Positions 12,895 through 36,097 of a stretch of DNA of 64,000 nucleotides are shown in pieces (the stretch's first letter is position 1; the number at the start of each line of letters is the position of its first letter). A program made the position numbers and the translations under genes. The notes under the pieces are model-generated. The model saw only the letters and a program-made list of their open reading frames with translations. It searched no databases and was not told the DNA's origin. This DNA is from Rhodopseudomonas palustris (GTDB taxonomy: Bacteria > Pseudomonadota > Alphaproteobacteria > Rhizobiales > Xanthobacteraceae): the NCBI RefSeq assembly GCF_003591005.1, contig NZ_QYYD01000002.1, positions 124,001 to 188,000 of the forward strand. The letters run 5' to 3'.

Positions 12895-12895
12895 G

Positions 12896-20710: not shown

Positions 20711-21184
20711 TTACTTCAGCCGCTCCAGCAGCGCCAGAAACTGCACGCGTTCGTCTTTCGCCAGCGGCGACAGCGTTTCCTTGGTGACGTCGTGCGCCAC
20801 TGGGATCGAGCGCTCGGTCAGCGCCTTGCCGTCGGGCGTCAGCGACACCACCAGTCGGCGGCCGTCTTCCGGATCGGCGGCGGTCTCGACCAGGCCGCGC
20901 TTCACCAGGCGCTCCACCACGCCCTTGATGGTGGCCGCGTCCATCGCGGTGGCGCGGCCGAGGAGGTTTTGGGAGCAGGGGCCCTTCTCGAACAGTTTCG
21001 CCAGCGCGGCCCATTGCGTCATCGTCAAATCTTCGCCCATGCGGCTGACGAAAATCGTGGCGTGACGCTGCAGCACCTGGCGCAGCGTGAAACCGACCTG
21101 CGCGTCCAGCAGATAGGATGGGGCGCTCTTGGTCTTGCGGCGCGGCTTGTCCAACACTTTGCTCTTACCCGAATCTGAAGCCAA
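20711..21184 (-). CDS. MarR-family regulator, probable regulator of the nicotinate locus
   Basis: 157 residues from a TTG start. The winged helix lies in MTQWAALAKLFEKGPCSQNLLGRATAMDAATIKGVVERLVKRGLV, and the wing is DPEDGRRLVVSLT. It is the last gene of the leftward run that begins with 6-hydroxynicotinate reductase, six bases after livF. Nicotinate degradation in Pseudomonas putida is controlled by a MarR protein, NicR. This one is a candidate counterpart because of its position and the operator-like sites at 29508, 29613 and 33934. The effector would be 6-hydroxynicotinate if it is NicR-like. Not proven. Confidence 0.8.
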   Translation of the reverse strand: MASDSGKSKVLDKPRRKTKSAPSYLLDAQVGFTLRQVLQRHATIFVSRMGEDLTMTQWAALAKLFEKGPCSQNLLGRATAMDAATIKGVVERLVKRGLVETAADPEDGRRLVVSLTPDGKALTERSIPVAHDVTKETLSPLAKDERVQFLALLERLK

Positions 21185-21190
21185 TTTGCG

Positions 21191-21895
21191 TCACACCGCG
21201 AGGTAAGCGTCCCGGATTTCCGGATGCGCCTCGAGTTCGTCGATCGTGCCGGAGAAACGCATGCGGCCCTTCTCGATGATATAGGCGCGATCGCAGATCA
21301 GCTTGGCGAAATGCAAATTCTGCTCCGAAATGATGATGCCGAGCCCCTCGCGCTTCATCGCCAGGATGGCATCGGCCATTTGCTCTACGATCTTCGGCGC
21401 CAGCCCTTCGGACGGCTCATCGAGGAGTACGAGTGACGGGTTGCCCATCAGGGTGCGGCCGATGCTCAGCATCTGCTGCTCGCCGCCGCTCATGTCGCCG
21501 CCGAGCCGCTTTCGCATCTCGCCGAGGTTCGGAAACAGCTTGTAGATCCGGTCCGGCGTCCATTCGGCGACGCCGGGGCGCGGCTTCTGCTTTCCGACCT
21601 CGAAGTTTTCCTCGACGGTCAGCTCGGTGAAGATCCGCCGGTCCTCCGGCACGTAGCCGAGGCCGCGGCGCACGATCTCGTAGGACGGTAGCCGCGAAAT
21701 GTCCTCGCCCTCGAACGTCACCTTGCCGCTGCGCCGCTGTACCAGCCCGACCACCGAGCGGAAGCTGGTGCTCTTGCCGGCGCCGTTGCGGCCCAGCATG
21801 GCGACCACTTCGCCTTCGCCGACCGCGAAGCCGACGTCGAACAGGATGTGGGCCGGGCCGTAGTGGCTGTTCAGTTCGGAGACTTCGAGCTTCAT
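21191..21895 (-). CDS. livF: Branched-chain amino acid-type ABC transporter ATPase LivF
   Basis: 234 residues. Walker A is GRNGAGKST, with LGYVPEDRRIFTELTVEENFEVG, signature MSGGEQQMLSIGRTL, Walker B LVLLDEPSEGLAP and EQNLHFAKLICDRAYIIEKG, all typical LivF features. The ATG at 21895 overlaps the livG stop by four bases. It partners LivG, the fused LivHM and LivK in a HAAT importer. In this locus the ligand is more likely nicotinate or a pyridine intermediate than an amino acid (inference from context). Confidence 0.93.
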   Translation of the reverse strand: MKLEVSELNSHYGPAHILFDVGFAVGEGEVVAMLGRNGAGKSTSFRSVVGLVQRRSGKVTFEGEDISRLPSYEIVRRGLGYVPEDRRIFTELTVEENFEVGKQKPRPGVAEWTPDRIYKLFPNLGEMRKRLGGDMSGGEQQMLSIGRTLMGNPSLVLLDEPSEGLAPKIVEQMADAILAMKREGLGIIISEQNLHFAKLICDRAYIIEKGRMRFSGTIDELEAHPEIRDAYLAV

Positions 21896-22674
21896 GACAG
21901 CGCCTCCGCGCGGTGCTTGGCGTCGTAGAGCAGGCCTTCGCCGAGATAGATCGCCTGCACCTGACGGTCCTGGCGGACCTGCTGGGGCGTGCCGCGCGCG
22001 ATCAGCTGGCCGCGGTTCAACACCATCACCTCGTCGGCATGTTCGAACACCACGTCCATGTCGTGCTCGGTGAACAGCACGCCGATGTTTTTCGCTCGTG
22101 CGATGCCGGCGGTCAGCCGCATCAACTCGACGCGTTCCTTCGGCGCCATGCCGGCGGTCGGCTCGTCCATCAGCAGCAGCCGCGGCTGGTTGGCGAGCGC
22201 GATCGCCAGCTCGAGCCGCTTGAGGTCGCCATAAGCCAGCTCGCCGCACGGCCGCTCGGCCTGTTCGCTCATGCCGACCAGCGCGAGCAGCTCATCGGCC
22301 TCGGCGCGGTGTTGCGCGCCAGCATAGCCGATCATCGACCACAGCCGGTGATGAAACGACAGCAGCGCCACCTGCACGTTCTCGCGCACCGTCATCGACG
22401 CGAAGGTCGCGGTGATCTGGAAGGTTCGGCCGACGCCGCGGCGCCACACCGTGCGCGGCGGCAGGCCGACAATCTCGTCGCCGGCGAGCTTGATCGAGCC
22501 CGCGTCGGGCTTGATCTGGCCGTTGAGCATGTTGAAGCAGGTGCTCTTGCCGGCGCCGTTGGGTCCGATCAGGGCCAGGATCTCGCCGGCTTTCACCGTG
22601 AAGCTGACGTCACGCACCGCGTGGACGCCCGCATAGGACTTCACCAGCCCCTGGACTTCGAGCAGCGTGGTCAT
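21892..22674 (-). CDS. livG: Branched-chain amino acid-type ABC transporter ATPase LivG
   Basis: 260 residues from ATG 22674. Walker A is GPNGAGKST, with VGRTFQITATFASMTVRENV, an atypical signature LAYGDLKRLELAIALA, Walker B LLLMDEPTAGMAP and FTEHDMDVVFEHADEVMVLNRG, the standard LivG set. The signature SGG of most ABC proteins is replaced by AYG, which is usual for LivG. The start overlaps the permease stop (ATGA), so the three transporter genes livHM-livG-livF are translationally coupled. Confidence 0.93.
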   Translation of the reverse strand: MTTLLEVQGLVKSYAGVHAVRDVSFTVKAGEILALIGPNGAGKSTCFNMLNGQIKPDAGSIKLAGDEIVGLPPRTVWRRGVGRTFQITATFASMTVRENVQVALLSFHHRLWSMIGYAGAQHRAEADELLALVGMSEQAERPCGELAYGDLKRLELAIALANQPRLLLMDEPTAGMAPKERVELMRLTAGIARAKNIGVLFTEHDMDVVFEHADEVMVLNRGQLIARGTPQQVRQDRQVQAIYLGEGLLYDAKHRAEALS

Positions 22675-24563
22675 TCCGCGGCCTCCATCTTGGCGACAGC
22701 GAGGGCATCGGGTTTGCCGTTCTTCGGCCGTGGCCCGCGGTGGCGCCAATCTTCGATGAAGCCGACGATGCCCTTGGGCGCCGCCACCACCAGCAGCACG
22801 ATGATCGCGCCGAGTACCAGCTTGGAGAGGTCGGTCTGGCTCATCAGCCAGATCGCCAGCGCCTTGTAGACGATGGCGCCAATCACCGCGCCCGACACCG
22901 TCTCGATGCCGCCGAGCAGCACCATCACCAGGCCGTCGACCGAGATCGGGATGGCAAGTGACTCCGGAAACACCGAGCCCTTGAGGAAGGCGAACAGCGC
23001 GCCCGCGACGCCCGCGAACGTGCCGGCGACCAGCAGCGCCGCCCATTGCGTGGATTTGCGGTCGATGCCGATCGCATCGGCGCGCAGCGTGTTGTCGCGG
23101 GTGGCGCGGAGGCCGAAGCCGTAGGGCGAGAACACCAGCATGCGCAGCAGCGCGACGCCGACCACCGCGACGCCGAGCGTCAGCCAGAAGAAGCCCTGCG
23201 GACTGGAGGCCCAGGCCGATGGCCAGATGCCCAAAATGCCGTTGTCACCGCCGGTGACCTCGACCCACTGGAACGCCACCGACCAGATGATCTGCGCGAA
23301 CGCCAGCGTCAGCATGGCGAAGTACACGCCCGACAGCCGCACGCAGAACCAGCCAGCGACCAGCGCGCCCATCAGGCCGAACGCCGGGCCGACCAAGAGC
23401 GCCAATTCCATCGGCGCGCCGAGAAACTTCACCGCGAATGCCGCGCCGTAAGCGCCGAGGCCGAAATACGCGGCGTGGCCGAACGAGGCGAGGCCGCCGA
23501 CCGTCATCATGAAATGCAGGCTGGCGGCGAACAGCACGAACACCAGGATCTCGGAGCCGACGCTGAGCAGATAGTTGCCGGCGAACAGCGGGAGCAGCGC
23601 CGCGATCACCACCAGCGCGGCGACGCCGCCGCGCTCCAGCAGCGTCATCGGCTTCCACGGCCGGAACGAGATGCCGGTGCTGGACCGCGTGCCGCGCTCC
23701 GCCTTGCCGAGCAGCCCATAGGGCCGCACCACCAGCACCACCGCCATCACCAGGAACACGGCGATCAGCGAAATCTTCGGCAGCACCAGAATGCCGAGCG
23801 CGTTGAGCTCGGAGACCAGCACCGCCGCGATGAAGGCGCCGGTCACCGAGCCGAGCCCGCCGATCACCACCACGACGAACACTTCGACGATGATCGACAG
23901 GTCCATCGCGTGCGACACCGTGGTGCGCGGGATCTGCAGCGCGCCGCCGAGCGCAGCGAGGAACACGCCGAGCGCGAACACGCTGGTGAATAGCCATTTC
24001 TGATTGACACCGAGGCAGGCGACCATGTCGCGGTCCTGCGTCGCGGCGCGTACCAGCACGCCCCAGCGGGTGCCGTGAAACAGCAGCCAGAGCAGGCCGA
24101 GCACCGCTGGGCCGAGCACGATCAGCAGCAGGTCATAGGTCGGGATCATTCGGCCGAACAGGCTGAAGGCGCCGCTGAAGCCGGGTGCGCGCGGGCCCAT
24201 CAGATCGTCCGGGCCCCAGATCAGCACCACGAGATCCTGCACCATCAGCGTCACGCCGAAGGTGGCGAGCAGCTGGAACAACTCTGGCGCCTGATAGATC
24301 CGGCGCAGCAGCACCATCTCCATCAGCGCGCCGAGCACCGCGACGATCAGGCTGGCGACGAGCAGGCCGCCCCAGAACCCGAAGGCGCCGCTGAACCGGT
24401 CGGTCAACGTGAATGCCATGTAGGCGCCCAGCATGTAGAACGCGCCGTGAGCGAAGTTCACGATGCGGGTGACGCCGAAGATGATCGACAGGCCCGACGC
24501 GACCAGAAACAGCGACGCGGCGCTGGCGAGACCACTGAGAGCCTGGACTACGATCAGTTCCAC
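22671..24563 (-). CDS. Fused LivH-LivM branched-chain amino acid-type ABC permease
   Basis: 630 residues with two permease units in one chain. Residues 1-290 are LivH-like (IVNFAHGAFYMLGAYMAF, IGGLGSVTGAFIAAVLV). Residues about 310-600 are LivM-like (FGHAAYFGLGAYGAAF, GLRATRDNTLRADAIGID, LLGGIETVSGAVIGAI). In most systems these are two genes; fusions are known. The intact LivH and LivM signatures indicate both halves function. The C-terminal tail is Lys/Arg-rich. It lies in the nicotinate operon between livK and livG. Confidence 0.92.
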   Translation of the reverse strand: MELIVVQALSGLASAASLFLVASGLSIIFGVTRIVNFAHGAFYMLGAYMAFTLTDRFSGAFGFWGGLLVASLIVAVLGALMEMVLLRRIYQAPELFQLLATFGVTLMVQDLVVLIWGPDDLMGPRAPGFSGAFSLFGRMIPTYDLLLIVLGPAVLGLLWLLFHGTRWGVLVRAATQDRDMVACLGVNQKWLFTSVFALGVFLAALGGALQIPRTTVSHAMDLSIIVEVFVVVVIGGLGSVTGAFIAAVLVSELNALGILVLPKISLIAVFLVMAVVLVVRPYGLLGKAERGTRSSTGISFRPWKPMTLLERGGVAALVVIAALLPLFAGNYLLSVGSEILVFVLFAASLHFMMTVGGLASFGHAAYFGLGAYGAAFAVKFLGAPMELALLVGPAFGLMGALVAGWFCVRLSGVYFAMLTLAFAQIIWSVAFQWVEVTGGDNGILGIWPSAWASSPQGFFWLTLGVAVVGVALLRMLVFSPYGFGLRATRDNTLRADAIGIDRKSTQWAALLVAGTFAGVAGALFAFLKGSVFPESLAIPISVDGLVMVLLGGIETVSGAVIGAIVYKALAIWLMSQTDLSKLVLGAIIVLLVVAAPKGIVGFIEDWRHRGPRPKNGKPDALAVAKMEAAE

Positions 24564-24611
24564 GGCGGCGCCTTTCGTTCAGGTTGCAAGTCGTCGAAGA
24601 GCTGGGAGGAT

Positions 24612-24635
24612 GCCGCCGCTGAGATCAGCGGCGGC
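24612..24635 (-). promoter_or_regulatory. GC-rich hairpin between livK and livHM
   Basis: GCCGCCGCTGA at 24612-24622 is complementary to 24625-24635 with almost no loop, in the 90-base gap after the livK stop. No T-run follows on the minus strand, so it is more likely an mRNA-protecting or partial-stop hairpin that favours binding-protein expression than a full terminator. Confidence 0.55.
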
Positions 24636-24653
24636 GATTGTCGAAAAAGGAAC

Positions 24654-25850
24654 TCAGTTCGCCGGACGAAGCTTGGCGGCTTCGGCCTCGGGCGGCAGAT
24701 AGTCGGCGCCCTTCTTGAACTTGACGTCGACCATGATGCCCTTGCCGTCCTTCTGGGTGGTCTTGCCGACGAAGGCGCCCATCGTCGACTGATGGTCGCC
24801 GGCGCGGTACACGACCGGTCCAAACGGGGTGTCGACCTTGAGGTTCTTCATCGCCTTCATCAGGCTCTCGGTCGAGGTGTCGTCAGCAGCGTTCAGCACG
24901 GCGGCGACGCTCTTGACGGTCGAGTAACCGACCACCGAGCCGAGCCGCGGGTAGTCATTGTTCGCCGCCTGATAGGCGTCGAGGAAGGCTTTGTGCTCCG
25001 GTGTATCGATCGAGTACCAGGGATAGCCGGTGACGATCCAGCCTTCCGGCGTCTCGGTCTTCAGCGGATCGAGATATTCGGGTTCACCAGTCAAATACGA
25101 CACCACGACGCGGTCCTTGAACACACCGCGGGTGTTGCCCTCGCGCACCAGCTTCACGAGGTCGCCCGCGAAGGTGGCGTTGAGGATGGCGTCGGGCTTG
25201 GCGGCGTCGATCGCCTGCAGCACCGGGCCGGCGTCGATCTTGCCCAGCGGCGGCCACTGCTCGGCGACGAATTCGACGTCGGGCCGCTTCTTGGTGAGGA
25301 TCTCCTTGAACGCGGCGACGAAGGACTGGCCGTATTCGTAGTTCGGCGCGATTGTCGCCCACTTCTTGGCCGGCAGCTTGGCGGCTTCTTCGGCCAGCAT
25401 CGAGGCCTGCATGAAGTTCGAGGCGCGCAGCCGGAAGGTGTAGTCGTTGCCCTTCGACCAGACGATGGCGTCGGTCAACGGCTCGGCGGCGATGTACAGC
25501 ACCTTCTTCTGCTTGGCGAAGTCGGACAGCGCCAGACCGATATTGGACAGGAAGCCGCCGGCAATCATCACCACGCCGTCGCGCGCCACCAGCTCGTTGG
25601 CGGCGGTCAGCGCGTCGCCGGGCTTGCCGCCGTCGTCCTTGGTGATGACCACCAGCTTCTTGCCCTTGATGCCGCCGGCATCGTTGATCTGCTTGACGGC
25701 GAGCTCCAGGCCCTTCCGATAAGGCTCGGTGAAGCCGGGCAGGGACGAATAGGAGTTGATCTCGCCCACCTTGATTTCGCCCTGCTGGGCGTATGCCGCC
25801 CCGGACGTCAACAACAATGCCGTCAATGCCAGTCTTGCTATCTGCTTCAT
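24654..25850 (-). CDS. Periplasmic binding protein of the HAAT transporter (LivK-like)
   Basis: 398 residues. The signal peptide MKQIARLALTALLLTSGAAYA is followed by QQGEIKVGEINSYSSLPGF. The Peripla_BP_6 fold features include VVITKDDGGKPGDALTAANELV and NYEYGQSFVAAFKEIL. It follows the AA_synth gene with 36 bases between. The ligand is probably an acid of the nicotinate pathway given the surrounding operon, but family members bind many amino acids and aromatic acids. Confidence 0.92.
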   Translation of the reverse strand: MKQIARLALTALLLTSGAAYAQQGEIKVGEINSYSSLPGFTEPYRKGLELAVKQINDAGGIKGKKLVVITKDDGGKPGDALTAANELVARDGVVMIAGGFLSNIGLALSDFAKQKKVLYIAAEPLTDAIVWSKGNDYTFRLRASNFMQASMLAEEAAKLPAKKWATIAPNYEYGQSFVAAFKEILTKKRPDVEFVAEQWPPLGKIDAGPVLQAIDAAKPDAILNATFAGDLVKLVREGNTRGVFKDRVVVSYLTGEPEYLDPLKTETPEGWIVTGYPWYSIDTPEHKAFLDAYQAANNDYPRLGSVVGYSTVKSVAAVLNAADDTSTESLMKAMKNLKVDTPFGPVVYRAGDHQSTMGAFVGKTTQKDGKGIMVDVKFKKGADYLPPEAEAAKLRPAN

Positions 25851-25886
25851 ACGCTCTTGCCCTCTTCTGGTGATACTCAGCCTGGT

Positions 25887-26471
25887 TCAGCGTAGTCCGT
25901 CTTCGCCCTTGATCTCGGCGGTCGTCAGCCCGCCCACCCGCGGCAGCGGGCGGCCGGAATCCGTCACCGCCACAGCGACGACGATCTCATTGGCGCGTGG
26001 CGCATCGCCGACGCTCACCTGCATGCCGTCGAAATGGCTGCGTACGAAGGCGGCGTCCTTGTGGCCGAGCGGAATGTCGACCTCGGCGCCGAGCCCGCCG
26101 CGGCGCTTCGACGACGGGATCAGCGCCGCGCCCTTGCCCAGCACCTTGCGCACTGGCGCGCCCATCTTCGGATGCAGCAGCGCGGCGGCGTGTTCGAGTT
26201 CGCCGTTCTCGCCGACCAAAGCGGCCTTGCCGTAGCTCTCCGCCTTGCTGCCTTCGATGCCGAGCGCCGCCACGGCCTTCTCGGTCAAGACGCCGCCGAG
26301 TTCCTCGCCGATCGCGATAAGTTCGGACAGATCCTCGACATAGCGGCCGGCGAACGGATTCTCGATCACCGCGATCGCGGCGGCCCGGCGGGTGGCCGGG
26401 CTGACCGGCCGGCCCATCTCGGTCACCGTCTCTTCGACGACGACGACGATCTTGCGGATCTTGGCGCTCAT
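25887..26471 (-). CDS. AA_synth (amino acid synthesis, DUF1185) family protein, paralogue A
   Basis: 194 residues. Conserved blocks shared with the neighbour at 26468: IAVIENPFAGRY, GELEHAA, FVRSHFDGMQV, DAPRANEIV and a C-terminal RVGGL...IKGEDGLR. The family name is historical and no reaction is established to my knowledge. It starts with an ATGA overlap on the upstream paralogue. Two adjacent, equal-length paralogues in a nicotinate operon suggest two subunits of one enzyme, or sequential steps after enamidase (inference). Confidence 0.8.
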   Translation of the reverse strand: MSAKIRKIVVVVEETVTEMGRPVSPATRRAAAIAVIENPFAGRYVEDLSELIAIGEELGGVLTEKAVAALGIEGSKAESYGKAALVGENGELEHAAALLHPKMGAPVRKVLGKGAALIPSSKRRGGLGAEVDIPLGHKDAAFVRSHFDGMQVSVGDAPRANEIVVAVAVTDSGRPLPRVGGLTTAEIKGEDGLR

Positions 26472-27052
26472 CGCAGTCCGTCCTCGCCCTTGATGTCCTT
26501 GGCGGCAAGCCCGCCGACGCGCGCATGAATGCGCGGGCCGCAGCTCATCACCAGCACCAGCGCGATCTCATTGGCCTTTGGCGCGTCGGTGACGCCGACT
26601 TCCATCGCGTCGAAATGGCTGCGCACGTAGGAGGCGTTGACGTGGGTGACAGGCACGTCGAGCTTGGTGCCCGGGCCGCCGACCTTCTTGGTCGAGGGCA
26701 CGATCGCCTTGGCGTCGCCGAGGATTTCGCGCATCGCATAGCCGCCGGGCACGTGCCACAGCGCGCCGTGTTCGAGTTCGCCGGCGGCGCCGACGATCGC
26801 GCCCTTGCCGTAGCCGTCGATCGCCTTGGCGTCGCCGCCGAGCGCCTGCAGCAGTTCGCCCGCCAGCGCGACGCCGAGCGGCGTCAGATCGTCCATGAAG
26901 CCGGCGATCTCCGGCTCGTAGCGGCCGGCGAACGGGTTCTCGATCACGGCGATGATGGCGCCGCGCTTGCGCGGAGTCGCCGCCACCGGGCCGCCTTCGT
27001 GGAAGACCTCCTCGGTGATCAGCAGCTTCTTGCGGACTTTGACCTCAGGCAT
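26468..27052 (-). CDS. AA_synth (amino acid synthesis, DUF1185) family protein, paralogue B
   Basis: 194 residues from ATG 27052. It has the same blocks as paralogue A: IAVIENPFAGRYEPEI, GYGKGAIVGAAGELEHGALW, SYVRSHFDAMEVGV, DAPKANEIALVLVMSCGPRIHARVGGL. The start overlaps the UPF0280 gene end by eight bases. The two copies have diverged in the middle while keeping the ends, which suits subfunctionalised partners. Its function is unknown; it is placed in nicotinate use only by operon context. Confidence 0.8.
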   Translation of the reverse strand: MPEVKVRKKLLITEEVFHEGGPVAATPRKRGAIIAVIENPFAGRYEPEIAGFMDDLTPLGVALAGELLQALGGDAKAIDGYGKGAIVGAAGELEHGALWHVPGGYAMREILGDAKAIVPSTKKVGGPGTKLDVPVTHVNASYVRSHFDAMEVGVTDAPKANEIALVLVMSCGPRIHARVGGLAAKDIKGEDGLR

Positions 27053-27959
27053 TGGGACGCTCTTGTTGTGAGTGCGAGGAAAGAAGGGCGGCATCGCCGG
27101 TGCTGACGGTCTCACCCTGCAAATGCAGCGCCGCGGACGCGACCAAGCCACGCGACATCAGGTCGCGCGCGACGGCGAGGCCGGCAGACAGCGCCTGCGC
27201 GCGCTCGGCGGCGGACAGCAACGGCACGTCACGCGTGACGCGACGATCGCCGAGATCGTTGTCGGGCTGAATGTCGCGCGCGGCGACGCGGACGACGCCG
27301 CGACTGTCCGGCAGATCGACCGCATTGGCGACGACGGTCGCCGCCGCATCCGCCATCGCGGAGGTCGGCGCCAGGATCGTGACTGCATCCGCAATGCCAA
27401 GCGAGAAGCTGCGCCCGCGCCAGCCGCTGGTGGCGACGCCGCGGATCGGACTATCGGCGGGGATTTCGGCCGAGCCGATCAGCCGCGGCCGGTCGGGGCG
27501 ATCGACCAGTCCGACCGTATAGGTCGCGCCCTGCGCCAGATGCAGCGCGATGTCGCCGCCATTGTTGACATAGGCGCGGGTGATGCCGGGGCAGAGCAGC
27601 GCCTTCAGTATCTCATCCGCCACCGCGCCTGCGACCGCCGCCATCGGCGTGATGAACATCGCATCGGCGAACGGCGCCACTGCCGCGGCCATGCGCTGCG
27701 CGACCGGATGAATCAGCGCCGGCGCGTTGCCGCCTGTCGGCGCACGCAGCGCTGATAGTTCTGCGCACAGCGCGTCGAGCAAGCCGGTGAAGCGCCGCAC
27801 GGCAGCGTCGTAGGCGTGGCGCACCGCCTCGGGTTCGCCGGTCGCCTCGATGATCAGGTCGATCGGGCCGTCCTGCAGATGCAGGCGGCGGCCATCGGCC
27901 AGCAGCGCCGCCTGGATGGGCCGTCCTCGAACCGGCGAGATGGGTTGCGGGGCGGCCAT
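27045..27959 (-). CDS. UPF0280 family protein (ApbE superfamily), candidate flavin transferase
   Basis: 304 residues from ATG 27959, four bases after the reductase gene. UPF0280 proteins are distant members of the ApbE superfamily; ApbE moves FMN from FAD onto Ser/Thr of target proteins. Visible features are FITPMAAVAGAVADEILKALL, AYVNNGGDIALHLAQG (an ApbE-like NGGD loop) and GRSFSLGIADAVTILAPTSAMADAAATVVANAV (ApbE-like C-terminal metal/FAD region). The reductase upstream is of a type known to carry covalent flavin, so flavinylation is a reasonable hypothesis. Not shown experimentally as far as I know. Confidence 0.82.
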   Translation of the reverse strand: MAAPQPISPVRGRPIQAALLADGRRLHLQDGPIDLIIEATGEPEAVRHAYDAAVRRFTGLLDALCAELSALRAPTGGNAPALIHPVAQRMAAAVAPFADAMFITPMAAVAGAVADEILKALLCPGITRAYVNNGGDIALHLAQGATYTVGLVDRPDRPRLIGSAEIPADSPIRGVATSGWRGRSFSLGIADAVTILAPTSAMADAAATVVANAVDLPDSRGVVRVAARDIQPDNDLGDRRVTRDVPLLSAAERAQALSAGLAVARDLMSRGLVASAALHLQGETVSTGDAALLSSHSQQERPNA

Positions 27960-27963
27960 GCGA

Positions 27964-29457
27964 TCAGCCGAAGTAACGTTTGACGGCGTTGGGCGCCAGC
28001 GGCCACGGATTGTCCGCATGCGGCGCGACCGGGCGCCGCCCGTCGTCGAGCGTGATCGACGACACCGGGCGAACCTCCGCCATGTGGCCTCCGAGTTCCT
28101 GATAGTCCGACAGCCGCAGCGTAAATTCGATCGGCGCCACCAGCGCCGGCGTCGGTACATAGCCGAACGCATTCTCCGGCATCTTGGTAACGTCCACCAT
28201 GATGGTGATGCCACCACCCGGATAGACATAGACCGGCGCGCCGCCGCAGGTGACGTAGGTCAGCGCGTCCTTGACCGAATCGGTGAGGCGCACCGGATTT
28301 TCCGTCACGCCGGCGCGCAGCGAACCGCCGGCGCCCGCCATGAACAGCACGGTCGACAGCGCCGGTTCGCAATTGTCCTTCACCCGCTGCGACAGCATCG
28401 CCAGCTCCGCCGGCATCTCCTTCTCGCGCGGGATGAGCCCGTCGTCGAGTTCGAAGTACGCGGCGTGCTCGCCGGTGGTCGAGATAAAATACAGCCGCAG
28501 CCCGGGCCAGGCGACCTTGCGGTCGAACGGGCCGAGGATCGACAGCGGGTCGGAAATATTGGTGCCGCCCCAGCCGGTGCCGGGCTCGGCGACCTGGAAG
28601 TAGCGGCCCGGCGTCGAGCGCCGGCCCTTGATCTTGATGCCGGTGTCGGGAATGCCCAGAACCTTGCCGGCCTGATGTTCCGACAGCACGCCGGTGATGT
28701 GATCGTCGACCACCACGACGTCGTCAACCAAACCCAGCCACTGCTTGGCGAACATGCCGATCGTCGCCGAGCCGCAGCCGACGCGCATCCGCTCTTCCTT
28801 GACGCCGTTGACGATGGGCGCCTGGCCGGCCTGCACCATCACGGTGGAGCCGCCGTCGATCGTCAGTTCGACCGGCTTGCCGTTGCATAGATCGAGCAGC
28901 GCCTCGCAGGTGATGCGGCCTTCCTTCTTGCTGCCGCCGGTGAGGTGATGCACGCCGCCGAGCGACAGCATCTGCGAGCCGTATTCGGAGGTGGTGACAT
29001 GGCCGATCGCTTCGCCGCCGGCCCGCACGGTTGCCTGCTCGGGGCCGAGGAAGCGGTCGGTGTCGATCTTCACCTTGACGCCGCAGTAGCTGAAGATGCC
29101 CTCGGTGACGACCGTGACCATGTCGACGCCGCCCACTTCGGACGACACGATGAACGGCGCAGGCTTGTAGTCCGGATAGGTGGTGCCGGCGCCGATCGCG
29201 GTGATGAACGTCTCGGGTGGAGAAATCAGCGTCCCGTCCCACGAGCCGTCGCGATGGAACGGCACTACCGCGGCGCCATGCGCCAGCGCGCGGTCGAGCA
29301 CGACATGCGGATCGACGCGGACCAGTTCGCCGTTATGGTTGGCGTAGCGATCGCAAGCGCCGCTGGCGCCCGGCTTGATGTAGCACATCACCGGGCACGC
29401 ATCGCAGCGGATCTTGTCGTCGCTCGGCGTCTGCGCCGCAGGATTGCTGTCGCTCAT
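27964..29457 (-). CDS. hnr: 6-Hydroxynicotinate reductase
   Basis: 497 residues from ATG 29457. By family it reduces 6-hydroxynicotinate to 1,4,5,6-tetrahydro-6-oxonicotinate; the Eubacterium barkeri enzyme contains covalent flavin and Fe-S clusters. The N-terminal cysteines C18, C21, C25 and C35 (CDACPVMC...C) form a ferredoxin-like cluster site. Further cysteines lie at C125, C184, C191 and C228. A GCGSAT segment at 227-232 is the closest match to an ApbE target motif, but weak. It heads the leftward operon and is divergent from nicA. The enamidase at 34901 supports the assignment. Confidence 0.85.
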   Translation of the reverse strand: MSDSNPAAQTPSDDKIRCDACPVMCYIKPGASGACDRYANHNGELVRVDPHVVLDRALAHGAAVVPFHRDGSWDGTLISPPETFITAIGAGTTYPDYKPAPFIVSSEVGGVDMVTVVTEGIFSYCGVKVKIDTDRFLGPEQATVRAGGEAIGHVTTSEYGSQMLSLGGVHHLTGGSKKEGRITCEALLDLCNGKPVELTIDGGSTVMVQAGQAPIVNGVKEERMRVGCGSATIGMFAKQWLGLVDDVVVVDDHITGVLSEHQAGKVLGIPDTGIKIKGRRSTPGRYFQVAEPGTGWGGTNISDPLSILGPFDRKVAWPGLRLYFISTTGEHAAYFELDDGLIPREKEMPAELAMLSQRVKDNCEPALSTVLFMAGAGGSLRAGVTENPVRLTDSVKDALTYVTCGGAPVYVYPGGGITIMVDVTKMPENAFGYVPTPALVAPIEFTLRLSDYQELGGHMAEVRPVSSITLDDGRRPVAPHADNPWPLAPNAVKRYFG

Positions 29458-29507
29458 GGGACTGATGGCTCCAGGCCGTCGGCGCGTGGCGATCCGGCGC
29501 TGCCTCA

Positions 29508-29529
29508 TTTCATATGTATACTAATGAAA
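29508..29529. promoter_or_regulatory. 22-bp operator-like palindrome upstream of hnr
   Basis: TTTCAT, two bases, GTATAC, two bases, ATGAAA: 18 of 22 positions are symmetric. It lies 51 bases before the hnr ATG in the divergent hnr/nicA spacer. The pattern of a TATAC core with flanking half-sites is typical for MarR-type dimers. A candidate site for the MarR protein encoded at 20711. Confidence 0.6.
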
Positions 29530-29612
29530 AAGGAGGGCTGCCTTGAAGTCAAGCATAAGGAATGGGCAGCACATGCACAAACATTGTCGCAGTGCACACG
29601 CGCTTGACGGAA

Positions 29613-29633
29613 TTCATTGGTGTAGAAACAATC
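29613..29633 (+). promoter_or_regulatory. Repeated operator-like motif upstream of nicA
   Basis: TTCATT, G, GTGTA, G, AAACAATC. It matches the site at 33934-33954 upstream of the ferredoxin reductase gene at 19 of 21 positions. TTGACG at 29604-29609 and AACAAT at 29627-29632, 17 bases apart, form a plausible promoter that the motif overlaps. The left part TTCATT plus GTGTA resembles half of the 29508 palindrome. Confidence 0.6.
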
Positions 29634-29758
29634 GTCCGAGCAACTTGCAACGGCGGTGGAGCCCGAATGCCCGCTACTCATCACAGTGCAGCGTCGTTTA
29701 TTGCGGTGCACGCTCCGCGTTGCTTGCGGTGCAAGGCCGCATCTGCAAGGCGGCGCCG

Positions 29759-30262
29759 ATGAGTTCGGCGGGGCCCGTCAATTTGATCGTCAACGGAACC
29801 GAGCACGTCTTCGACCTGCCGCGCGACACCAAATTGATCTACGTGCTGCGCAACGATCTCGGCCTCAACGGCCCGAAGTTCGGCTGCGGCCTCGGCGAGT
29901 GCGGGACCTGCACGGTTCTGATCGACGGCGTCCCGGCGCGGTCGTGTGTGGTGACGCTGAAGACGGCCGAGGGCCGAACTGTTACCACGCTGGAAGGGCT
30001 CGGCACCCGCGATGCGCTGCACCCGGTGCAGGCCGCGTTCATCGACGCACAGGCGGCGCAATGCGGTTACTGCCTCAACGGCATGATCATGTCGGCGACC
30101 GCGCTGCTGGCGCGCAACCCGACGCCCAGCGTCAGCGAGATCCGAGAGGCGCTGCGCTACAATTTGTGCCGCTGCGGCACGCATGTGGAAATCGTCCGTG
30201 CCGTGATGATCGCGGCGGGCGTAGCCCCGGAGGCGACGCTCGCTGAGGCGGCCCCGTCATGA
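29759..30262 (+). CDS. nicA: Nicotinate hydroxylase small [2Fe-2S] subunit (NicA-like)
   Basis: 167 residues from ATG 29759. It carries two [2Fe-2S] sites: a plant-type motif GCGLGECGTCTV with a fourth cysteine in ARSCVVT, and the xanthine dehydrogenase-type helical motif CGYCLNG ... LCRCGTH. P. putida NicA has a similar size and pairs with a large molybdenum-cytochrome subunit. The next gene starts inside its stop (ATGA) and is exactly that subunit. No FAD subunit gene is present, consistent with the NicAB type. It hydroxylates nicotinate at C6. Confidence 0.88.
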   Translation: MSSAGPVNLIVNGTEHVFDLPRDTKLIYVLRNDLGLNGPKFGCGLGECGTCTVLIDGVPARSCVVTLKTAEGRTVTTLEGLGTRDALHPVQAAFIDAQAAQCGYCLNGMIMSATALLARNPTPSVSEIREALRYNLCRCGTHVEIVRAVMIAAGVAPEATLAEAAPS

Positions 30263-33200
30263 GCGAGCGCCAAGTGACCGAGCCGACGCCGGACACAGCG
30301 GATCTGCTGACTCGTGCCGGCACGCTCGCGGTGCTGCGGCCGTCGCAGCATGTGAAGGGATTAGTTGCCACCGCGCCGCCGCCCGACGGCGCGCTCGATC
30401 TATTTCTGTTTGTCGACGATAGCGGGCAGGCGCTCGCTTTCAGCGGCCACGTCGATCTCGGCACCGGCATTCGCACCGCGCTGGCCCAGATCGTCGCCGA
30501 AGAACTCGACGTGCCGTTCGGTGCCGTCACCATGGTGATGGGCCACACCTCGGGCACGCCCAATCAGGGCGCCACCATCGCCAGCGACAGCATTCAGGTC
30601 AGCGCCGTGCCGCTGCGCAAGGCGGCGGCGCAGGCGCGGCATCATCTCGTCGCGCTCGCCGCGCAGGAGCTGGAGTTGCCGGCCGATCAACTCGCCGTCA
30701 CCGACGGCATCGTGCATCCGCGCGATGCCTCCAATCGCGGCGTCTCCTTCGCATCGCTGCTGCGTGGCCGCAGCGATCGGCTGATGCTGGCCGACGATGT
30801 CGCGATCAAGCCGGTCAGCGAGCATCGCATCGTCGGCCGCCGCGTTGCGCGCGCGGATATTCCGGCGAAGGCCACCGGCGATTTCGTCTATGTGCACGAT
30901 GTCCGCGTGCCCGGCATGCTGCATGGCCGCGTGGTGCGGCCGCCTTATGCGGGCATCGACGCCGGCGATTTCATCGGCAACAGCCTGCTTGGCGTCGATG
31001 AGTCCTCGATCGCGCATCTTCCAGGCGTGGTGGCGGTCGTCACCATGGGCGATTTCGTCGGTGTGGTCGCCGAACGCGAGGAGCAGGCCATCGAAGCCGC
31101 GCGTGTGCTCGACGTTCAATGGAAGCCGCCACCGCCGCTGCCGAAGCTCGACGATCTCGCCACTGCGCTGCGCGCCAATCCGGCGACGACGCGCACGCTG
31201 CTCGACAAGGGCGACGTCGAAGCCGCGCGTAGTTCTGCGACTGTGCCGATGGATCGCACCTACGTCTGGCCGTATCAGATGCACGGCTCGATCGGCCCGT
31301 CCTGCGGCGTTGCCGATGTCAGTAACGGCTTCGCGCGGATCTGGTCCGGTACGCAGAACCCGTATCCGCTGCGGCTGGATATTTCGATCCTGCTTGGCAT
31401 CCCTGAAGCCGACGTCGAAATCCTCCGCTTCGAGGCCGCCGGCTGCTACGGCCGCAATTGCGCCGACGATGTCTGTGCCGACGCCGCATTGTTATCACGT
31501 GCAGTGGGGCGGCCGGTTCGCGTGCAGTTGACGCGCGAGCAGGAGCATGCCTGGGAGCCGAAGGGCGCGGCGCAGCTGATGGAGATCTCCGGTGGGCTCA
31601 CCGCCGACGGCAGCCCGGCCGCCTACGACTTCGCCACGCGCTATCCGTCGAACGCCGCCGTCACGCTGGCGCTGCTGCTGACGGGGCGCGTGCCGGCCAA
31701 CAATCCGGTGTTCGAAATGGGCGATCGCACCGCGATCCCGCCTTACGCCTACGATAACCTCCGCGTCCGCGTGCACGACATGGCGCCGATCGTTCGCGCG
31801 GCCTGGCTGCGCGGCGTTTCGGCGCTGCCGAATTCGTTCGCGCATGAGAGTTACATCGACGAACTTGCCGCCGCGGCCGGTGTCGATCCGCTGGAATATC
31901 GGCTGCGCTATCTGCACGATCCACGCGCCGTCGATCTCGTCAAGGAAGTCGCCGCGCGGGCTAACTGGGCGCATCGCACCGGGCCGCGCCGCGAGATCGT
32001 CGAAGGCGACGTGGTGCGGGGACAGGGGCTCGCCTACGCGCTCTACGTGCACTCCAAATTTCCCGGCTACGGTGCCGCCTGGTCGGCCTGGGTCGCCGAT
32101 GTCGAGGTGAATACCAGGACCGGCGACGTCGCGGTGAAGCGCGTCGTGGTCGGCCAGGACTCCGGGCTCATGATCAACCCGGCCGGGATCGAGCATCAGA
32201 TCCACGGCAACGTCATCCAGTCGACCAGCCGCGCGCTGAAGGAGAGCGTCAGCTTTACCGACACCGCGGTCGCCGACAAGGAGTGGGGCGCCTATCCGAT
32301 CCTCACTTTCCCCGAAGTGCCGGTGATCGACGTGGTGTTGATGCCGCGGCCGAACGATCCGCCGCTCGGCAGCGGCGAGTCCGCCTCCGTGCCGTCCGCC
32401 GCGGCGATCGCCAACGCCATTTTCGACGCGACCGGGGTGCGGCTGCGCGAGCCGCCGTTCACGCCGGACCGCGTCCGCGCTGCCTTGGGTTTGCCACAGC
32501 CCGAGCAGCCCGCCGCGCCGCCGCCGCGGAAGCGCTCATGGTTTGCAATGGCGGGCGCTGCGTTACTCGGCGCGTTCGGCATGGCGGCGGTGGCGCTGCC
32601 GATCCGCGGCGCGCTCGCCCCGATCACGCCGCCCGATCCCGCGACCTTCTCGGCCGACATGATCGCCCGCGGCCGGCAACTCGCCGCCCTCGGCGGCTGC
32701 GCCACCTGTCACACCGCCCCCGGCGGCATAGCCAATGCCGGCGGCCGCGCGATGCAGACGCCATTCGGCACGGTGTACGCGACCAATCTTACGCCCGATC
32801 CCGAGACCGGCCTCGGCGCGTGGTCCTACGCGGCGTTCGAACGGGCGATGCGCGAAGGCATCGCACGCGACGGCAGCCACCTCTACCCGGCGTTCCCCTA
32901 TACGTCGTTCACCCGTAGCAGCGACACCGACCTGCAGGCGCTGTACGCCTATCTGATGTCGCAGCCGCCGATGAAAGCAGAGACGCCGGTGGCCAAGATG
33001 GCGTTTCCATTCAACATCCGGCCCCTGATGGCCGGCTGGAATCTGCTGTTCCTGCGGCCGGGCCCAATGCAGGCCGATCCGGCCCGCGCCGCGCAATGGA
33101 ACCGCGGCGCCTATCTGGTCGAAAGCCTCGGCCATTGCGGCGCCTGCCATACGCCACGCAATGCGCTGGGCGCCGAGAAGGCCAAGACCGACTATCTTGC

Positions 33201-33825
33201 CGGTGGCGAGGTCGATGGCTGGCACGCCCCGGCGCTGACCGCGCTGTCGCGCGCGCCGATCCCGTGGACCGAGGCCGAACTGTTCGCCTATCTGCGCAGC
33301 GGCTTCTCGCGCTTCCACGGCACGGCGGCGGGGCCGATGGCCGCGGTGGTCGAACAACTTGGACCGCTGCCCGACGCCGATATCCGCGCGATGGCGACCT
33401 ATCTGGCCTCATTGGCACCGGCGGCCGAGCCCGATCCGGAGCAACGCGCCGCGGCGCTGCAGGCCGAGGCGGCATCTGCACTTCGACCGCTCGATACACT
33501 TGGCGGCCGGCTCTACGAAGGGGCCTGTGCGTCCTGCCACGCCGAGAGCGGCCCGACGCTATTCGGGGTCCGCCCGGCGCTGGCGCTCAACACCAATGTC
33601 CACGCCGACAACCCAGACAACCTGATTAGGGTCATTCTAGACGGAATACCTAGTCCGGCAGCGGCCGAACTGGGCGATATGCCCGGGTTCCGCCACAGTT
33701 TCGACGATAACCAGATCGCGGCGCTGGTGAAATATCTGCGCGCCTCCTTCGCCCCGCAGGCGCCCGCCTGGGGCGGCGTGGAACAAGCGGTGGCGCGCCT
33801 GCGCGCCCACCAAGGCTCCCACTGA
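30259..33825 (+). CDS. nicB: Nicotinate hydroxylase large subunit: molybdopterin domain fused to triheme cytochrome c (NicB-like)
   Basis: 1188 residues, essentially the length of P. putida NicB. Residues about 20-745 are a xanthine dehydrogenase-type molybdopterin domain (GHVDLGTGIRTALAQIVAEELDV, GSIGPSCGVADV, LGSGESASVPSAAAIANAI). A hydrophobic helix, about residues 757-780, follows. Then come three heme c motifs: CATCH at 814, CGACH at 960 and CASCH at 1090. Electrons from hydroxylation can thus pass to the respiratory chain rather than to NAD. The helix probably anchors the cytochrome part in the membrane. It starts with an ATGA overlap on nicA. Confidence 0.9.
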   Translation: MSERQVTEPTPDTADLLTRAGTLAVLRPSQHVKGLVATAPPPDGALDLFLFVDDSGQALAFSGHVDLGTGIRTALAQIVAEELDVPFGAVTMVMGHTSGTPNQGATIASDSIQVSAVPLRKAAAQARHHLVALAAQELELPADQLAVTDGIVHPRDASNRGVSFASLLRGRSDRLMLADDVAIKPVSEHRIVGRRVARADIPAKATGDFVYVHDVRVPGMLHGRVVRPPYAGIDAGDFIGNSLLGVDESSIAHLPGVVAVVTMGDFVGVVAEREEQAIEAARVLDVQWKPPPPLPKLDDLATALRANPATTRTLLDKGDVEAARSSATVPMDRTYVWPYQMHGSIGPSCGVADVSNGFARIWSGTQNPYPLRLDISILLGIPEADVEILRFEAAGCYGRNCADDVCADAALLSRAVGRPVRVQLTREQEHAWEPKGAAQLMEISGGLTADGSPAAYDFATRYPSNAAVTLALLLTGRVPANNPVFEMGDRTAIPPYAYDNLRVRVHDMAPIVRAAWLRGVSALPNSFAHESYIDELAAAAGVDPLEYRLRYLHDPRAVDLVKEVAARANWAHRTGPRREIVEGDVVRGQGLAYALYVHSKFPGYGAAWSAWVADVEVNTRTGDVAVKRVVVGQDSGLMINPAGIEHQIHGNVIQSTSRALKESVSFTDTAVADKEWGAYPILTFPEVPVIDVVLMPRPNDPPLGSGESASVPSAAAIANAIFDATGVRLREPPFTPDRVRAALGLPQPEQPAAPPPRKRSWFAMAGAALLGAFGMAAVALPIRGALAPITPPDPATFSADMIARGRQLAALGGCATCHTAPGGIANAGGRAMQTPFGTVYATNLTPDPETGLGAWSYAAFERAMREGIARDGSHLYPAFPYTSFTRSSDTDLQALYAYLMSQPPMKAETPVAKMAFPFNIRPLMAGWNLLFLRPGPMQADPARAAQWNRGAYLVESLGHCGACHTPRNALGAEKAKTDYLAGGEVDGWHAPALTALSRAPIPWTEAELFAYLRSGFSRFHGTAAGPMAAVVEQLGPLPDADIRAMATYLASLAPAAEPDPEQRAAALQAEAASALRPLDTLGGRLYEGACASCHAESGPTLFGVRPALALNTNVHADNPDNLIRVILDGIPSPAAAELGDMPGFRHSFDDNQIAALVKYLRASFAPQAPAWGGVEQAVARLRAHQGSH

Positions 33826-33905
33826 TCGATGCCTTTCCCTTCAGGTTGCCCGATAAATCGGCGCGCGATGCCTGAAATGTCCGCGCGGCACGGGCGTTCG
33901 CCGCG

Positions 33906-33934
33906 TTGACAGGGGGCGGGGTGCGATCTTATTT
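33906..33934 (+). promoter_or_regulatory. Sigma-70-like promoter of the fpr/enamidase unit
   Basis: TTGACA at 33906-33911, 17-base spacer, TTATTT at 33929-33934. It lies about 85 bases before the fpr start. The repeated operator motif begins at the last -10 base and would cover the transcription start, a repressing position. Confidence 0.55.
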
Positions 33935-33954
33935 TCATTCGTGTACAAACAATC
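33934..33954 (+). promoter_or_regulatory. Repeated operator-like motif upstream of ferredoxin reductase
   Basis: TTCATT, C, GTGTA, C, AAACAATC: identical to the nicA-upstream site at 29613-29633 except for two variable bases. Presence before both nicA and fpr argues that these genes share a regulator. Confidence 0.6.
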
Positions 33955-34017
33955 TGTCGGGCTGACGCCTCATGCCATCGCGTCCCGGCCGATCAACACC
34001 AACTCCGGAGTTCTGCC

Positions 34018-34791
34018 GTGAGCAATCTGATGGAAGAGCGCGTTCTCTCCGTTCGTCATTGGACCGATCGTTTGTTCAGCTTCACCACCACTCGCGATTC
34101 CGGCTTCCGGTTCCGCAATGGTGAGTTCACCATGACGGGCATCAAGGTCGACGGCAAACCGCTGCTGCGCGCCTACTCGGTCGCCAGCCCGAACTACGAA
34201 GAGACGCTGGAGTTCTACTCCATCAAGGTGCCGTACGGCCCGCTGACCTCGCGGATGCAGCACCTCAAGGAGGGCGACACCATCATCGTCGGCCGCAAGG
34301 CGACCGGCACGCTGGTGATCGACAATCTGCGCGAGGGCAAGAATCTGTACTTGCTCGCGACCGGCACCGGCGTCGCGCCGTTCCTGTCGATCATCCGCGA
34401 TCCCGAGACCTACGAGCGGTTCGAGAAGATTGTGCTGGTTCACGGCTGCCGGCAGATTGCCGAGCTAGCGTACGGCGAGTCGATGGTGACGGCGCTGCAG
34501 GAGCACGAATTCCTCGCCGACGAGGTCAAGGACAAGCTGATCTACTACCCGACCGTGACCCGCGAGCCGTTCGTCCACGAAGGCCGGATTTCGAAGCTGA
34601 TCGACAATGGCCAGCTGTTCTCCGACATCGGCCTGCCGCCGCTCGACAAGGTGCAGGACCGCGTGATGCTGTGCGGCTCGACCCAGATGATGGTGGACCT
34701 CAAGAGCCGGCTCGTTGCTCTCGGCTTCGAGGAAGGTAATCACGGCGAAGCCGGTGACTTCGTGCTCGAGAAAGCTTTCGCCGAAAGGTGA
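34018..34791 (+). CDS. fpr: Ferredoxin/flavodoxin-NADP+ reductase
   Basis: 257 residues. The FAD-binding motif is RAYSVASPN, the NADP-binding region LATGTGVAPFLSIIRDP, with the late MLCGSTQMM strand and C-terminal VLEKAFAER, close to E. coli Fpr in size. The start is GTG 34018, with GGAG upstream. It exchanges electrons between NADPH and ferredoxin. Lying between nicAB and enamidase under the same operator motif, it may supply reduced ferredoxin to 6-hydroxynicotinate reductase (inference). A general stress or housekeeping role is the alternative. Confidence 0.9.
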   Translation: MSNLMEERVLSVRHWTDRLFSFTTTRDSGFRFRNGEFTMTGIKVDGKPLLRAYSVASPNYEETLEFYSIKVPYGPLTSRMQHLKEGDTIIVGRKATGTLVIDNLREGKNLYLLATGTGVAPFLSIIRDPETYERFEKIVLVHGCRQIAELAYGESMVTALQEHEFLADEVKDKLIYYPTVTREPFVHEGRISKLIDNGQLFSDIGLPPLDKVQDRVMLCGSTQMMVDLKSRLVALGFEEGNHGEAGDFVLEKAFAER

Positions 34792-34900
34792 CCTGCGTTC
34801 GCCGCGTAGCAATCATCGTTGCGCGGCGCCGCCGAGTTCGTATGCTGACAAACAAACAGCCGCTCGGCCCCGTGGGTCGATGAGTGAGGGAGAGAGCTAG

Positions 34901-36097
34901 ATGGCCCATGACGCGCCCGCCCCGCAGGGGCCCACCAAGCTGGTGGTCCGCAACATCGGGCTGATGCTCAGCGGCGATCTCAATCAGCCGATCCTCGAAG
35001 CCGATACGATCGTGGCCGAGAACGGCCGCATCACAGCGATCGGCCGGCTCAAGGATGTCGACACCGAAGGCGCGACGACGACCGTCGACGCCGGTGGGGC
35101 GGCAGTAACTCCCGGCCTGATCGACAGCCACGTGCATCCGGTCGCCGGCGACTGGACGCCGCGGCAGAGCCAGCTCAACTGGATCGACTCGTCGCTGCAC
35201 GGCGGCGTCACTACGATGATTTCGGCCGGCGAAGTGCACTATCCGGGCCGGCCGCGCGACGTCATCGGCATCAAGGCGCTGGCGATCACGGCGCAGCGCA
35301 GCTTCTCGGCGTTCCGCGCCAGCGGCGTCAAGATGCATGCCGGCGCGCCGGTGATCGAACACGAGATGGAAGAGAACGACTTCAAAGAGCTCGCCGCCGC
35401 CGGCGTCAAGCTGCTCGGCGAGATCGGTCTCGGCGGGGTCAAGGACGGCCCCACCGCCAGGAAGATGGTGGAGTGGGCGCGCAAATACGGGATCCAGTCG
35501 ACCATCCACACCGGCGGTCCGTCGATCGCCGGCTCCGGGTTGATCGACAAGGACGTCGTGCTCGAAGCCGGCACCGACGTGGTCGGTCACATCAACGGCG
35601 GCCACACCGCGCTGCCCGATGATCAGATCCGCTGTATCTGCGAAGGCTGCAAGGCCGGGCTCGAACTCGTCCACAATGGCAACGAGCGTTCGGCGCTGTA
35701 CACGCTGCGCATCGCGCGCGAGATGGGCGATCTCCATCGCGTCATTCTCGGTACCGACGGTCCCGCCGGCTCCGGCGTGCAGCCGCTCGGCATTCTGCGC
35801 ATGGTGTCGCTGCTGTCGTCGCTCGGCGATCTGCCGGCAGAGCAGGCGTTCTGCCTCGCCACCGGCAACACCGCGCGGATGCGCGAGCTCGACTGCGGCC
35901 TGATCGAAGTCGGCCGCGCCGCCGATCTCGTCATCATGGACGTGGCGCAGCACTCCGGCGGCGCGACGCTGCTCGAGAGCGTGCGGCTTGGCGACCTGCC
36001 GGGCATCGGCATGACCATCATCGACGGCATCGTCCGTTCCGAACGCTCGCGCAACACGCCGCCGGCGAAGCGCGTCCCCTCGATCGTCAAGAGCTGA
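34901..36097 (+). CDS. ena: Enamidase (1,4,5,6-tetrahydro-6-oxonicotinate hydrolase), amidohydrolase superfamily
   Basis: 398 residues, preceded by GGGAGAGAG. The amidohydrolase metal centre shows HVH (H77, H79), a bridging-position glutamate in LLGEIGLGG, His in STIHTGG, His in VGHINGGH and Asp in LGTDGPAG. In E. barkeri, enamidase is a Fe-Zn enzyme of this family; it hydrolyses tetrahydro-oxonicotinate to 2-formylglutarate and ammonia. Co-occurrence with hnr in the same locus makes the assignment strong. It probably shares the fpr transcript. The following gene is convergent, 16 bases away. Confidence 0.87.
   Translation: MAHDAPAPQGPTKLVVRNIGLMLSGDLNQPILEADTIVAENGRITAIGRLKDVDTEGATTTVDAGGAAVTPGLIDSHVHPVAGDWTPRQSQLNWIDSSLHGGVTTMISAGEVHYPGRPRDVIGIKALAITAQRSFSAFRASGVKMHAGAPVIEHEMEENDFKELAAAGVKLLGEIGLGGVKDGPTARKMVEWARKYGIQSTIHTGGPSIAGSGLIDKDVVLEAGTDVVGHINGGHTALPDDQIRCICEGCKAGLELVHNGNERSALYTLRIAREMGDLHRVILGTDGPAGSGVQPLGILRMVSLLSSLGDLPAEQAFCLATGNTARMRELDCGLIEVGRAADLVIMDVAQHSGGATLLESVRLGDLPGIGMTIIDGIVRSERSRNTPPAKRVPSIVKS

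Follow-up and report, generated by a model that had tools for sequence, protein, structure and literature searches.

A gene cluster of Rhodopseudomonas palustris predicted to take up nicotinate and open its ring by the reductive route, with a UPF0280 protein as candidate partner of 6-hydroxynicotinate reductase

We analysed a 64,000-nucleotide stretch of Rhodopseudomonas palustris DNA (hereafter the window), which carries at positions 20711-36097 a gene cluster that, with a probability of roughly 85% in our estimate, encodes the uptake and the front end of nicotinate catabolism of the Azorhizobium type, with the hydroxylase NicAB, the 6-hydroxynicotinate reductase Hnr and the enamidase Ena acting in this order. 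The window lies within contig C22 of a 5.62 Mb genome that is 99.96% complete. The cluster consists of two divergent runs in which every frame is intact. From the centre outward, the minus-strand run comprises hnr, a UPF0280 gene, two DUF1185 genes and the genes for a substrate-binding protein, a fused LivHM permease, LivG, LivF and a MarR-family regulator; the plus-strand run comprises nicA, nicB, a ferredoxin-NADP reductase-like gene and ena. The initial annotation had noticed nicAB-like genes (a 2Fe-2S small subunit and a 1188-residue molybdopterin-triheme protein) diverging from hnr and followed by an enamidase-like amidohydrolase, and had read them as a hybrid of NicAB hydroxylation, Hnr reduction and ring opening by enamidase. 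The domains, strands and order of these genes were as it described, and the hybrid reading, which concerns predicted activities, fits every sequence test reported here. The span also contains the UPF0280 gene, both DUF1185 genes, the importer genes, marR and an FAD/NAD reductase gene (34018-34791), which it had not mentioned.

In the proposed pathway, the ATP-binding cassette (ABC) importer would take up nicotinate, which NicAB would convert to 6-hydroxynicotinate, passing the electrons via three hemes to the respiratory chain. Hnr, probably fed with NAD(P)H through the reductase encoded at 34018-34791, would reduce 6-hydroxynicotinate to 1,4,5,6-tetrahydro-6-oxonicotinate (THON), and Ena would hydrolyse its lactam and enamine, yielding ammonia and 2-formylglutarate. 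The latter would be processed onward toward glutarate by enzymes presumably encoded elsewhere in the genome. The UPF0280 protein may serve to mature Hnr, and the MarR protein may act on a palindrome with a GTATAC core.

Such a route has precedents. Kitts is said to have described, in 1992, a membrane-bound hydroxylase coupled to respiration in Azorhizobium. The reductive route was reported in the aerobic Azorhizobium caulinodans (Kitts 1989/1992, as cited in the available part of a 2012 paper, PMC3511419), and the available part of another source places it in Eubacterium barkeri and Azorhizobium (PMC9304392). In the same portion, the 2012 paper lists nicotinate clusters that a BLAST search with the E. 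barkeri cluster retrieved from A. caulinodans ORS571, B. japonicum USDA110, R. palustris HaA2 and SG-6C. It assigns the SG-6C cluster to nicotinate use via THON by homology, gives 42% for Hnr of SG-6C versus E. barkeri, and runs the Azorhizobium tail through glutarate, citing Kitts 1992, unlike the E. barkeri fermentation (PMC3511419). Because this paper describes such clusters in relatives, the locus is not a new pathway, and we rejected that interpretation. Our locus, in another genome, resembles the Azorhizobium-type cluster in bringing together hydroxylase, hnr, enamidase and importer and in its predicted route via THON; the likeness is one of gene content and route, judged by the legend and text of that paper, which give no hydroxylase type in the part available (PMC3511419). 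In two B. japonicum loci of our own set (L037, L071), the hydroxylase is NicAB. The E. barkeri fermentation (Ndh, Hnr, Ena) shares with our locus the Ena family, its closest solved relative being the E. barkeri enamidase 2VUN, and, via relatives, the Hnr family. It differs in having a four-subunit Ndh where our hydroxylase has three hemes; in addition, a Pfam scan of 30 window proteins, not aimed at the tail, revealed no gene of the fermentation tail. Our locus supports, in one more genome, the reductive breakdown of the vitamin B3 ring by aerobic bacteria.

We compared the cluster with two samples: 398 genomes of the host's phylum (213 genera; matches counted at E ≤ 0.001), and the best 80 of 589 confirmed hnr stretches obtained from a scan of named genomes, many of them cut by contig ends. 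Most of these 80 named loci come from Bradyrhizobium or further Alphaproteobacteria, and some from Acidobacteria bins. The closest among the matches listed was an R. palustris bin, with 89% identity in Hnr and an identical gene order. Around the 80 hnr genes, matches were found to UPF0280 in 78 loci, to DUF1185 in 73 and to NicB, at any degree of similarity, in 73, followed by the importer ATPases (55), marR (54), enamidase (44) and the reductase gene (33). The linkage of the cluster genes exceeds chance.

The nic cluster of Pseudomonas putida encodes NicAB, NicC, NicX, NicD-F and NicR. Our locus shares with it the NicAB architecture and a MarR regulator but encodes Hnr and Ena where P. putida has NicC and NicX. 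NicA possesses both [2Fe-2S] domains of the small subunit (Fer2 and Fer2_2); its frame as called spans 29543-30262(+), and we placed the start at 29759. NicB (1188 amino acids) combines molybdopterin-binding and cytochrome c domains, with CxxCH motifs at residues 814, 960 and 1090, and its cytochrome part resembles 8GY3 chain A (E 4.2e-105). The pair fits the P. putida-type architecture, and we predict from it hydroxylation of nicotinate at C6. NicB is also 51-58% identical, over the aligned stretch, to six homologues adjoining close NicC genes. On a tree of 26 hand-picked NicB proteins (20 labelled Hnr and 6 NicC; G274 was labelled by its adjoining gene, and in G167 NicB and hnr lie on separate contigs), the route label changes at least four times, all forced by the starred branches, and a single change suffices in 0% of 200 bootstrap trees. 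Clustering of the labels barely exceeds that of shuffled labels: the shuffles averaged 5.5-5.6 changes, and 48 and 29 of 500 came out equally low. NicAB appears to be a front end common to the NicC and Hnr routes.

An alternative is that nicotinate is used via NicC and NicX encoded elsewhere, with hnr and ena kept for a different purpose. The initial annotation had seen no nicC- or nicX-like gene in the window, where we recognised none either, and had named a nicC-type gene elsewhere that alone supports growth as evidence against its reading; we looked for such a gene genome-wide. Our reference NicC and NicX were taken from the nic cluster of G038, a genome that lacks Hnr, and hit 5EOW (E 1.7e-192) and 7CN3 (E 9e-198). 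With them we queried 37 genomes, namely all 32 that have Hnr plus five that have NicAB and no Hnr. NicAB was counted only for full-length matches at least 50% identical, since the NicB query at E 0.001 matches 244 of the 398 genomes via its molybdenum or cytochrome part. All five Hnr-less NicAB genomes (the reference source and four others) carry NicC and NicX on the NicAB contig within ~10 kb, those of the four non-source genomes being 59-68% and 43-45% identical, respectively. By contrast, NicX matched nothing in the 5.62 Mb R. palustris genome, and NicC reached at most 33% and 193 bits there, whereas it scored 514-621 bits in five other genomes that have a close NicC. In 31 of the 32 Hnr genomes, the best NicC match was 40% or less. 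The remaining one, G274, has a close NicC (69%) and NicX (47%) by its NicAB and hnr on a different contig; this one genome with both routes speaks for the alternative. With no NicX match and NicC at most 33% in a 99.96% complete genome, we rejected, as far as sequence can tell, a hidden NicC route here and regard the alternative as extremely improbable. Before the NicC reference was available, we had fetched 12 FAD-monooxygenase loci from this genome and listed eight of their frames. NicX-like matches of 35-36% occur in nine further Hnr genomes, and G287, likewise an Hnr genome and with NicC matching at 40% at best, encodes a NicX-like protein (54%; C1:2882843-2883868).

Neither Pfam nor NCBIfam recognised Hnr itself at E 0.001. 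It is 60-89% identical to 45 relatives, and 17 of 26 plasmid records with a homologue annotate it as 6-hydroxynicotinate reductase, the other nine leaving it hypothetical or unannotated. Cysteines 35, 38, 42, 52, 245 and 380 are invariant in the 46 aligned sequences, and Cys 142 and 201 are conserved in at least 90%. The window's hnr is the sole Hnr match of its genome; elsewhere, in G016 (C1:2969796-2971258), the match falls into two pieces that overlap and are read in different frames, which points to a frameshift or split gene. Of the homology search against the P. putida and E. barkeri proteins suggested in the initial annotation, the enamidase part held directly, whereas NicAB and Hnr gained their support via domains, relatives and annotation.

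The enzymes might act instead on another N-heterocycle, such as a substituted or different pyridine, with the 6-hydroxynicotinate names being inherited annotation. Similarity of NicB alone does not fix the route, molybdenum hydroxylases have broad relatives, and the hydroxylase beside hnr varies among the 80 named loci: 45 have NicAB (a NicB piece at least 55% identical), 26 a fused molybdenum-iron-sulfur protein (more than 500 bits) with a flavin subunit, and nine neither type. Against this stand the similarity of Ena to 2VUN over nearly its whole length, the assignment of such clusters to nicotinate in the available part of PMC3511419, and a nicotinate phosphoribosyltransferase gene in 17 of the 80 loci, which is an independent hint at nicotinate as the substrate. 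We consider another substrate unlikely and favour nicotinate.

In the case of ring opening, our locus encodes an enamidase, and comparison points to a probable second solution in its relatives. Ena aligns with 2VUN over residues 12-395, the next best solved relative reaching only 5e-08, and an HxH motif, two further histidines and an aspartate line up as amidohydrolase ligands. Among the 32 Hnr genomes, an enamidase at least 60% identical was present in 18 (the next best in the sample being 40-41%) and a HyuA at least 60% identical in 16, which gives 16 genomes with enamidase only, 14 with HyuA only, two with both (G123 and G194, which have neither gene on the hnr contig) and none with neither. 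HyuA reached at most 44% in the other 16 Hnr genomes and the five Hnr-less ones; the best match in the R. palustris genome was 36%, the window representing the enamidase form. For this distribution Fisher p is 5e-7 over genomes and 0.0014 over 16 genera, values to be read with caution in view of shared ancestry; both states occur inside two families (f2 and f17). A Neorhizobium locus (L134) and a Pleomorphomonas plasmid (L137) carry hyuA and hyuB after the hnr-UPF0280-DUF1185 run, with no enamidase within the fetched stretches, and one of the 80 named loci (L086, Agrobacterium) has both hyu genes. In the HyuA-only genomes, hyuA lies within the ~20 kb fetched around hnr in eight of 14 and elsewhere in the genome in six; hyuB matched in five of these eight stretches, and in the other three hyuA is near the stretch end. 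The simplest reading is that a HyuA-type lactamase replaces the enamidase as ring opener, and the comparison predicts this second, unrelated enzyme in Rhizobiaceae and other bacteria. HyuA proteins of the L134, L137 and L086 type are nearest to caprolactamase subunit alpha at 480-483 bits; as this falls under the cut-off of 1000, we infer their ATP dependence only tentatively.

The most constant companion of hnr is the UPF0280 gene. A UPF0280-type protein was found in exactly the same 32 of 398 genomes as Hnr (16 of 213 genera). The two genes lie within 1.5 kb in all 30 sampled loci, the window included (a marR match stands between them in L115), and in 77 of the 80 named loci they are neighbours on the same strand. 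Of these 77, 71 comply with the set limits, and in the other six the matches overlap by 51-69 bases; L044 has a partial match only, at a contig end. These counts are less independent than they appear through shared ancestry, nine sampled genomes belonging to one genus and eight to another. The protein scored 404.9 bits with NF003322 (PRK04334.1-2; cut-off 290), which we equated with UPF0280 via the plasmid annotation of the neighbour gene and the match to 2O34 of Desulfovibrio vulgaris, its sole solved match by sequence profile (E 8.2e-12). Its similarity to Pfam ApbE (26.9 bits) barely exceeds the cut-off of 25.6. The best fold match of its predicted structure (mean predicted local distance difference test, pLDDT, 92) was likewise 2O34 (E 3.8e-10; template modelling score, TM, 0.55), ahead of FmnB and ApbE, both flavin transferases (E 3e-6 at best, probability ~1, TM 0.3-0.45, large root-mean-square deviation). 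GGD and AD-x-[AL]-A-T are retained in 52 of 52 sequences. UPF0280 appears to be a distant relative of ApbE that has lost the ApbE motif.

The E. barkeri Hnr reportedly carries a covalent flavin plus Fe-S clusters, in work by Alhapel from 2006. Our best guess, based on these comparisons, is that UPF0280 most likely matures Hnr, by flavin attachment or by Fe-S or sulfur handling. Several observations weigh against this and against the assignment of Hnr. H-x-[IL]-x-D-P, which we take to be an ApbE motif, as we do DP-x-TG, was present in 0 of 52 UPF0280 sequences (DP-x-TG in one of 52), and D-x-x-[ST]-G-A-[ST], whose bearing on such transfer we likewise assume, in 0 of 46 Hnr sequences ([ST]-G-A-[ST] in one of 46). 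For Hnr, no convincing relative of solved structure was found, and a fold search of the PDB with its model yielded nothing at E 0.001; the latter is weak evidence, the model pLDDT being only 75. Finally, three of the 80 named loci have no UPF0280 beside hnr: it is on another contig in L034 and 8.2 kb from hnr in L063, and in L067 the contig stops 130 bases past hnr, with no UPF0280 match in that bin. Both motifs being absent, ordinary ApbE-type flavin transfer to Hnr is disfavoured, and we set it aside; a variant chemistry may operate instead. The missing motif also speaks for the alternative that UPF0280 is a structural subunit or a separate pathway enzyme, to which we give somewhat less than even odds. 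As far as the available part of one source goes, homocysteine synthesis in Desulfovibrio depends on COG2122, the same family, along with DUF39 and NIL/ferredoxin proteins; a role in persulfide chemistry has also been proposed for COG2122 (PMC5764234). This role in another redox pathway fits a shared helper better than a pathway-specific enzyme, though not decisively. Our protein resembles the COG2122 proteins of methanogens and Desulfovibrio in family and best match (2O34), but here it is tied to Hnr, and no DUF39 or NIL domain was found in the 30 scanned window proteins. Maturation of Hnr thus stays our preferred role, and COG2122, a family of debated function, gains a test case amenable to study, in which Hnr is the one clear candidate client.

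A broader proposal strikes us as an even bet: Hnr and UPF0280 may form an obligate two-gene module, UPF0280 being repurposed to mature Hnr, that combines with an interchangeable heme or flavin hydroxylase and with either enamidase or an ATP-dependent HyuAB, so that THON ring opening would have arisen twice. Neither the UPF0280-Hnr link nor the replacement of enamidase by HyuA was found in the open-access literature searched.

Table 1. Features of the cluster in window coordinates.
Feature	Position	Strand	Evidence
MarR-family regulator, last gene of the hnr run	20711..21184	-	PF01047 E 3.8e-11; match in 54/80 named hnr loci
LivF-type ABC ATPase; called frame, true start probably further in	21191..22249	-	PF00005 E 8.4e-30
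LivG-type ABC ATPase; gene shorter than the frame, because the match begins at ~residue 126	21892..23046	-	PF00005, PF12399; NCBIfam LivG best but under cut-off
Fused LivH-LivM-type permease	22671..24563	-	PF02653, two stretches, E 1.7e-64
Periplasmic substrate-binding protein of the importer	24654..25850	-	PF13458 E 1.7e-71
DUF1185 / AA_synth, second copy	25887..26471	-	PF06684 E 6.8e-73
DUF1185 / AA_synth, first copy; frame extends to 27151	26468..27052	-	PF06684 E 1.4e-68; start set at 27052
UPF0280/COG2122, proposed Hnr maturation partner	27045..27959	-	NF003322 404.9 bits; AlphaFold2 model pLDDT 92; Foldseek best 2O34, then FmnB/ApbE
hnr, 6-hydroxynicotinate reductase; in-frame ATG at ~29457 may be the real start	27964..29508	-	Plasmid homologue annotation; conserved Cys
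Operator-like palindrome, core GTATAC at 29516	29508..29529	.	Sole GTATAC in the 64 kb window
nicA, [2Fe-2S] small subunit	29759..30262	+	PF00111, PF01799
nicB, molybdopterin domains fused to three-heme cytochrome c part	30259..33825	+	PF02738, PF20256, PF00034, PF13442; three CxxCH
Ferredoxin-NADP reductase-like, proposed electron feeder of Hnr	34018..34791	+	PF00175, PF00970; best NCBIfam NF008178, 159 bits, under cut-off 390
ena, enamidase (predicted ring opening)	34901..36097	+	2VUN E 1e-108

Both transcripts are probably under the control of the MarR protein, acting at the putative GTATAC operator, whose palindrome reaches the start point of the longest frame of hnr. We compared 42 hnr-nicA regions, the window and 41 others that keep 60 bases of coding sequence on each side. 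GTATAC occurred in 35 and was missing from seven, and TTCGTATACGAA occurred in 29, the means of 200 base shuffles being 2.4 and 0, respectively. Because these regions are related, this reflects conservation and not independent recurrence. A regulator that we take to belong to the MarR family is BpsR of Bordetella. It regulates nicotinate genes and responds to 6-hydroxynicotinate, according to the available part of PMC6837509.

Besides its two copies in the cluster, DUF1185 has a third elsewhere in the R. palustris genome. Of the 80 named loci, 72 have a DUF1185 gene at most 3.2 kb from hnr; in five of the other eight, less than 3.2 kb of downstream sequence was available. The family has a chorismate-mutase-like fold, importer neighbours and an unassigned reaction (PMC2954203, available part). 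Beside the third copy, after ABC transporter genes, lies a second enamidase-like amidohydrolase gene, 41% identical (C11:389436-391189, equivalent to L180:9425-11247); together they perhaps belong to another lactam-opening pathway.

An uncharacterised protein of ~490-520 amino acids is encoded in seven of the 80 named hnr loci, including L060:4742-6292(-), a copy without Pfam or NCBIfam match, and L134:4743-6206(-), without NCBIfam match. Beyond the cluster, a PNPOx-like gene (36114-36731) sits between ena and phosphonate (phn) genes at 36728-42582, including phnH, phnI and phnJ. On the other side, at 10482-13759, a DUF993 gene flanked by GFO/IDH/MocA and xylose-isomerase-like genes forms an uncharacterised sugar-type cluster.

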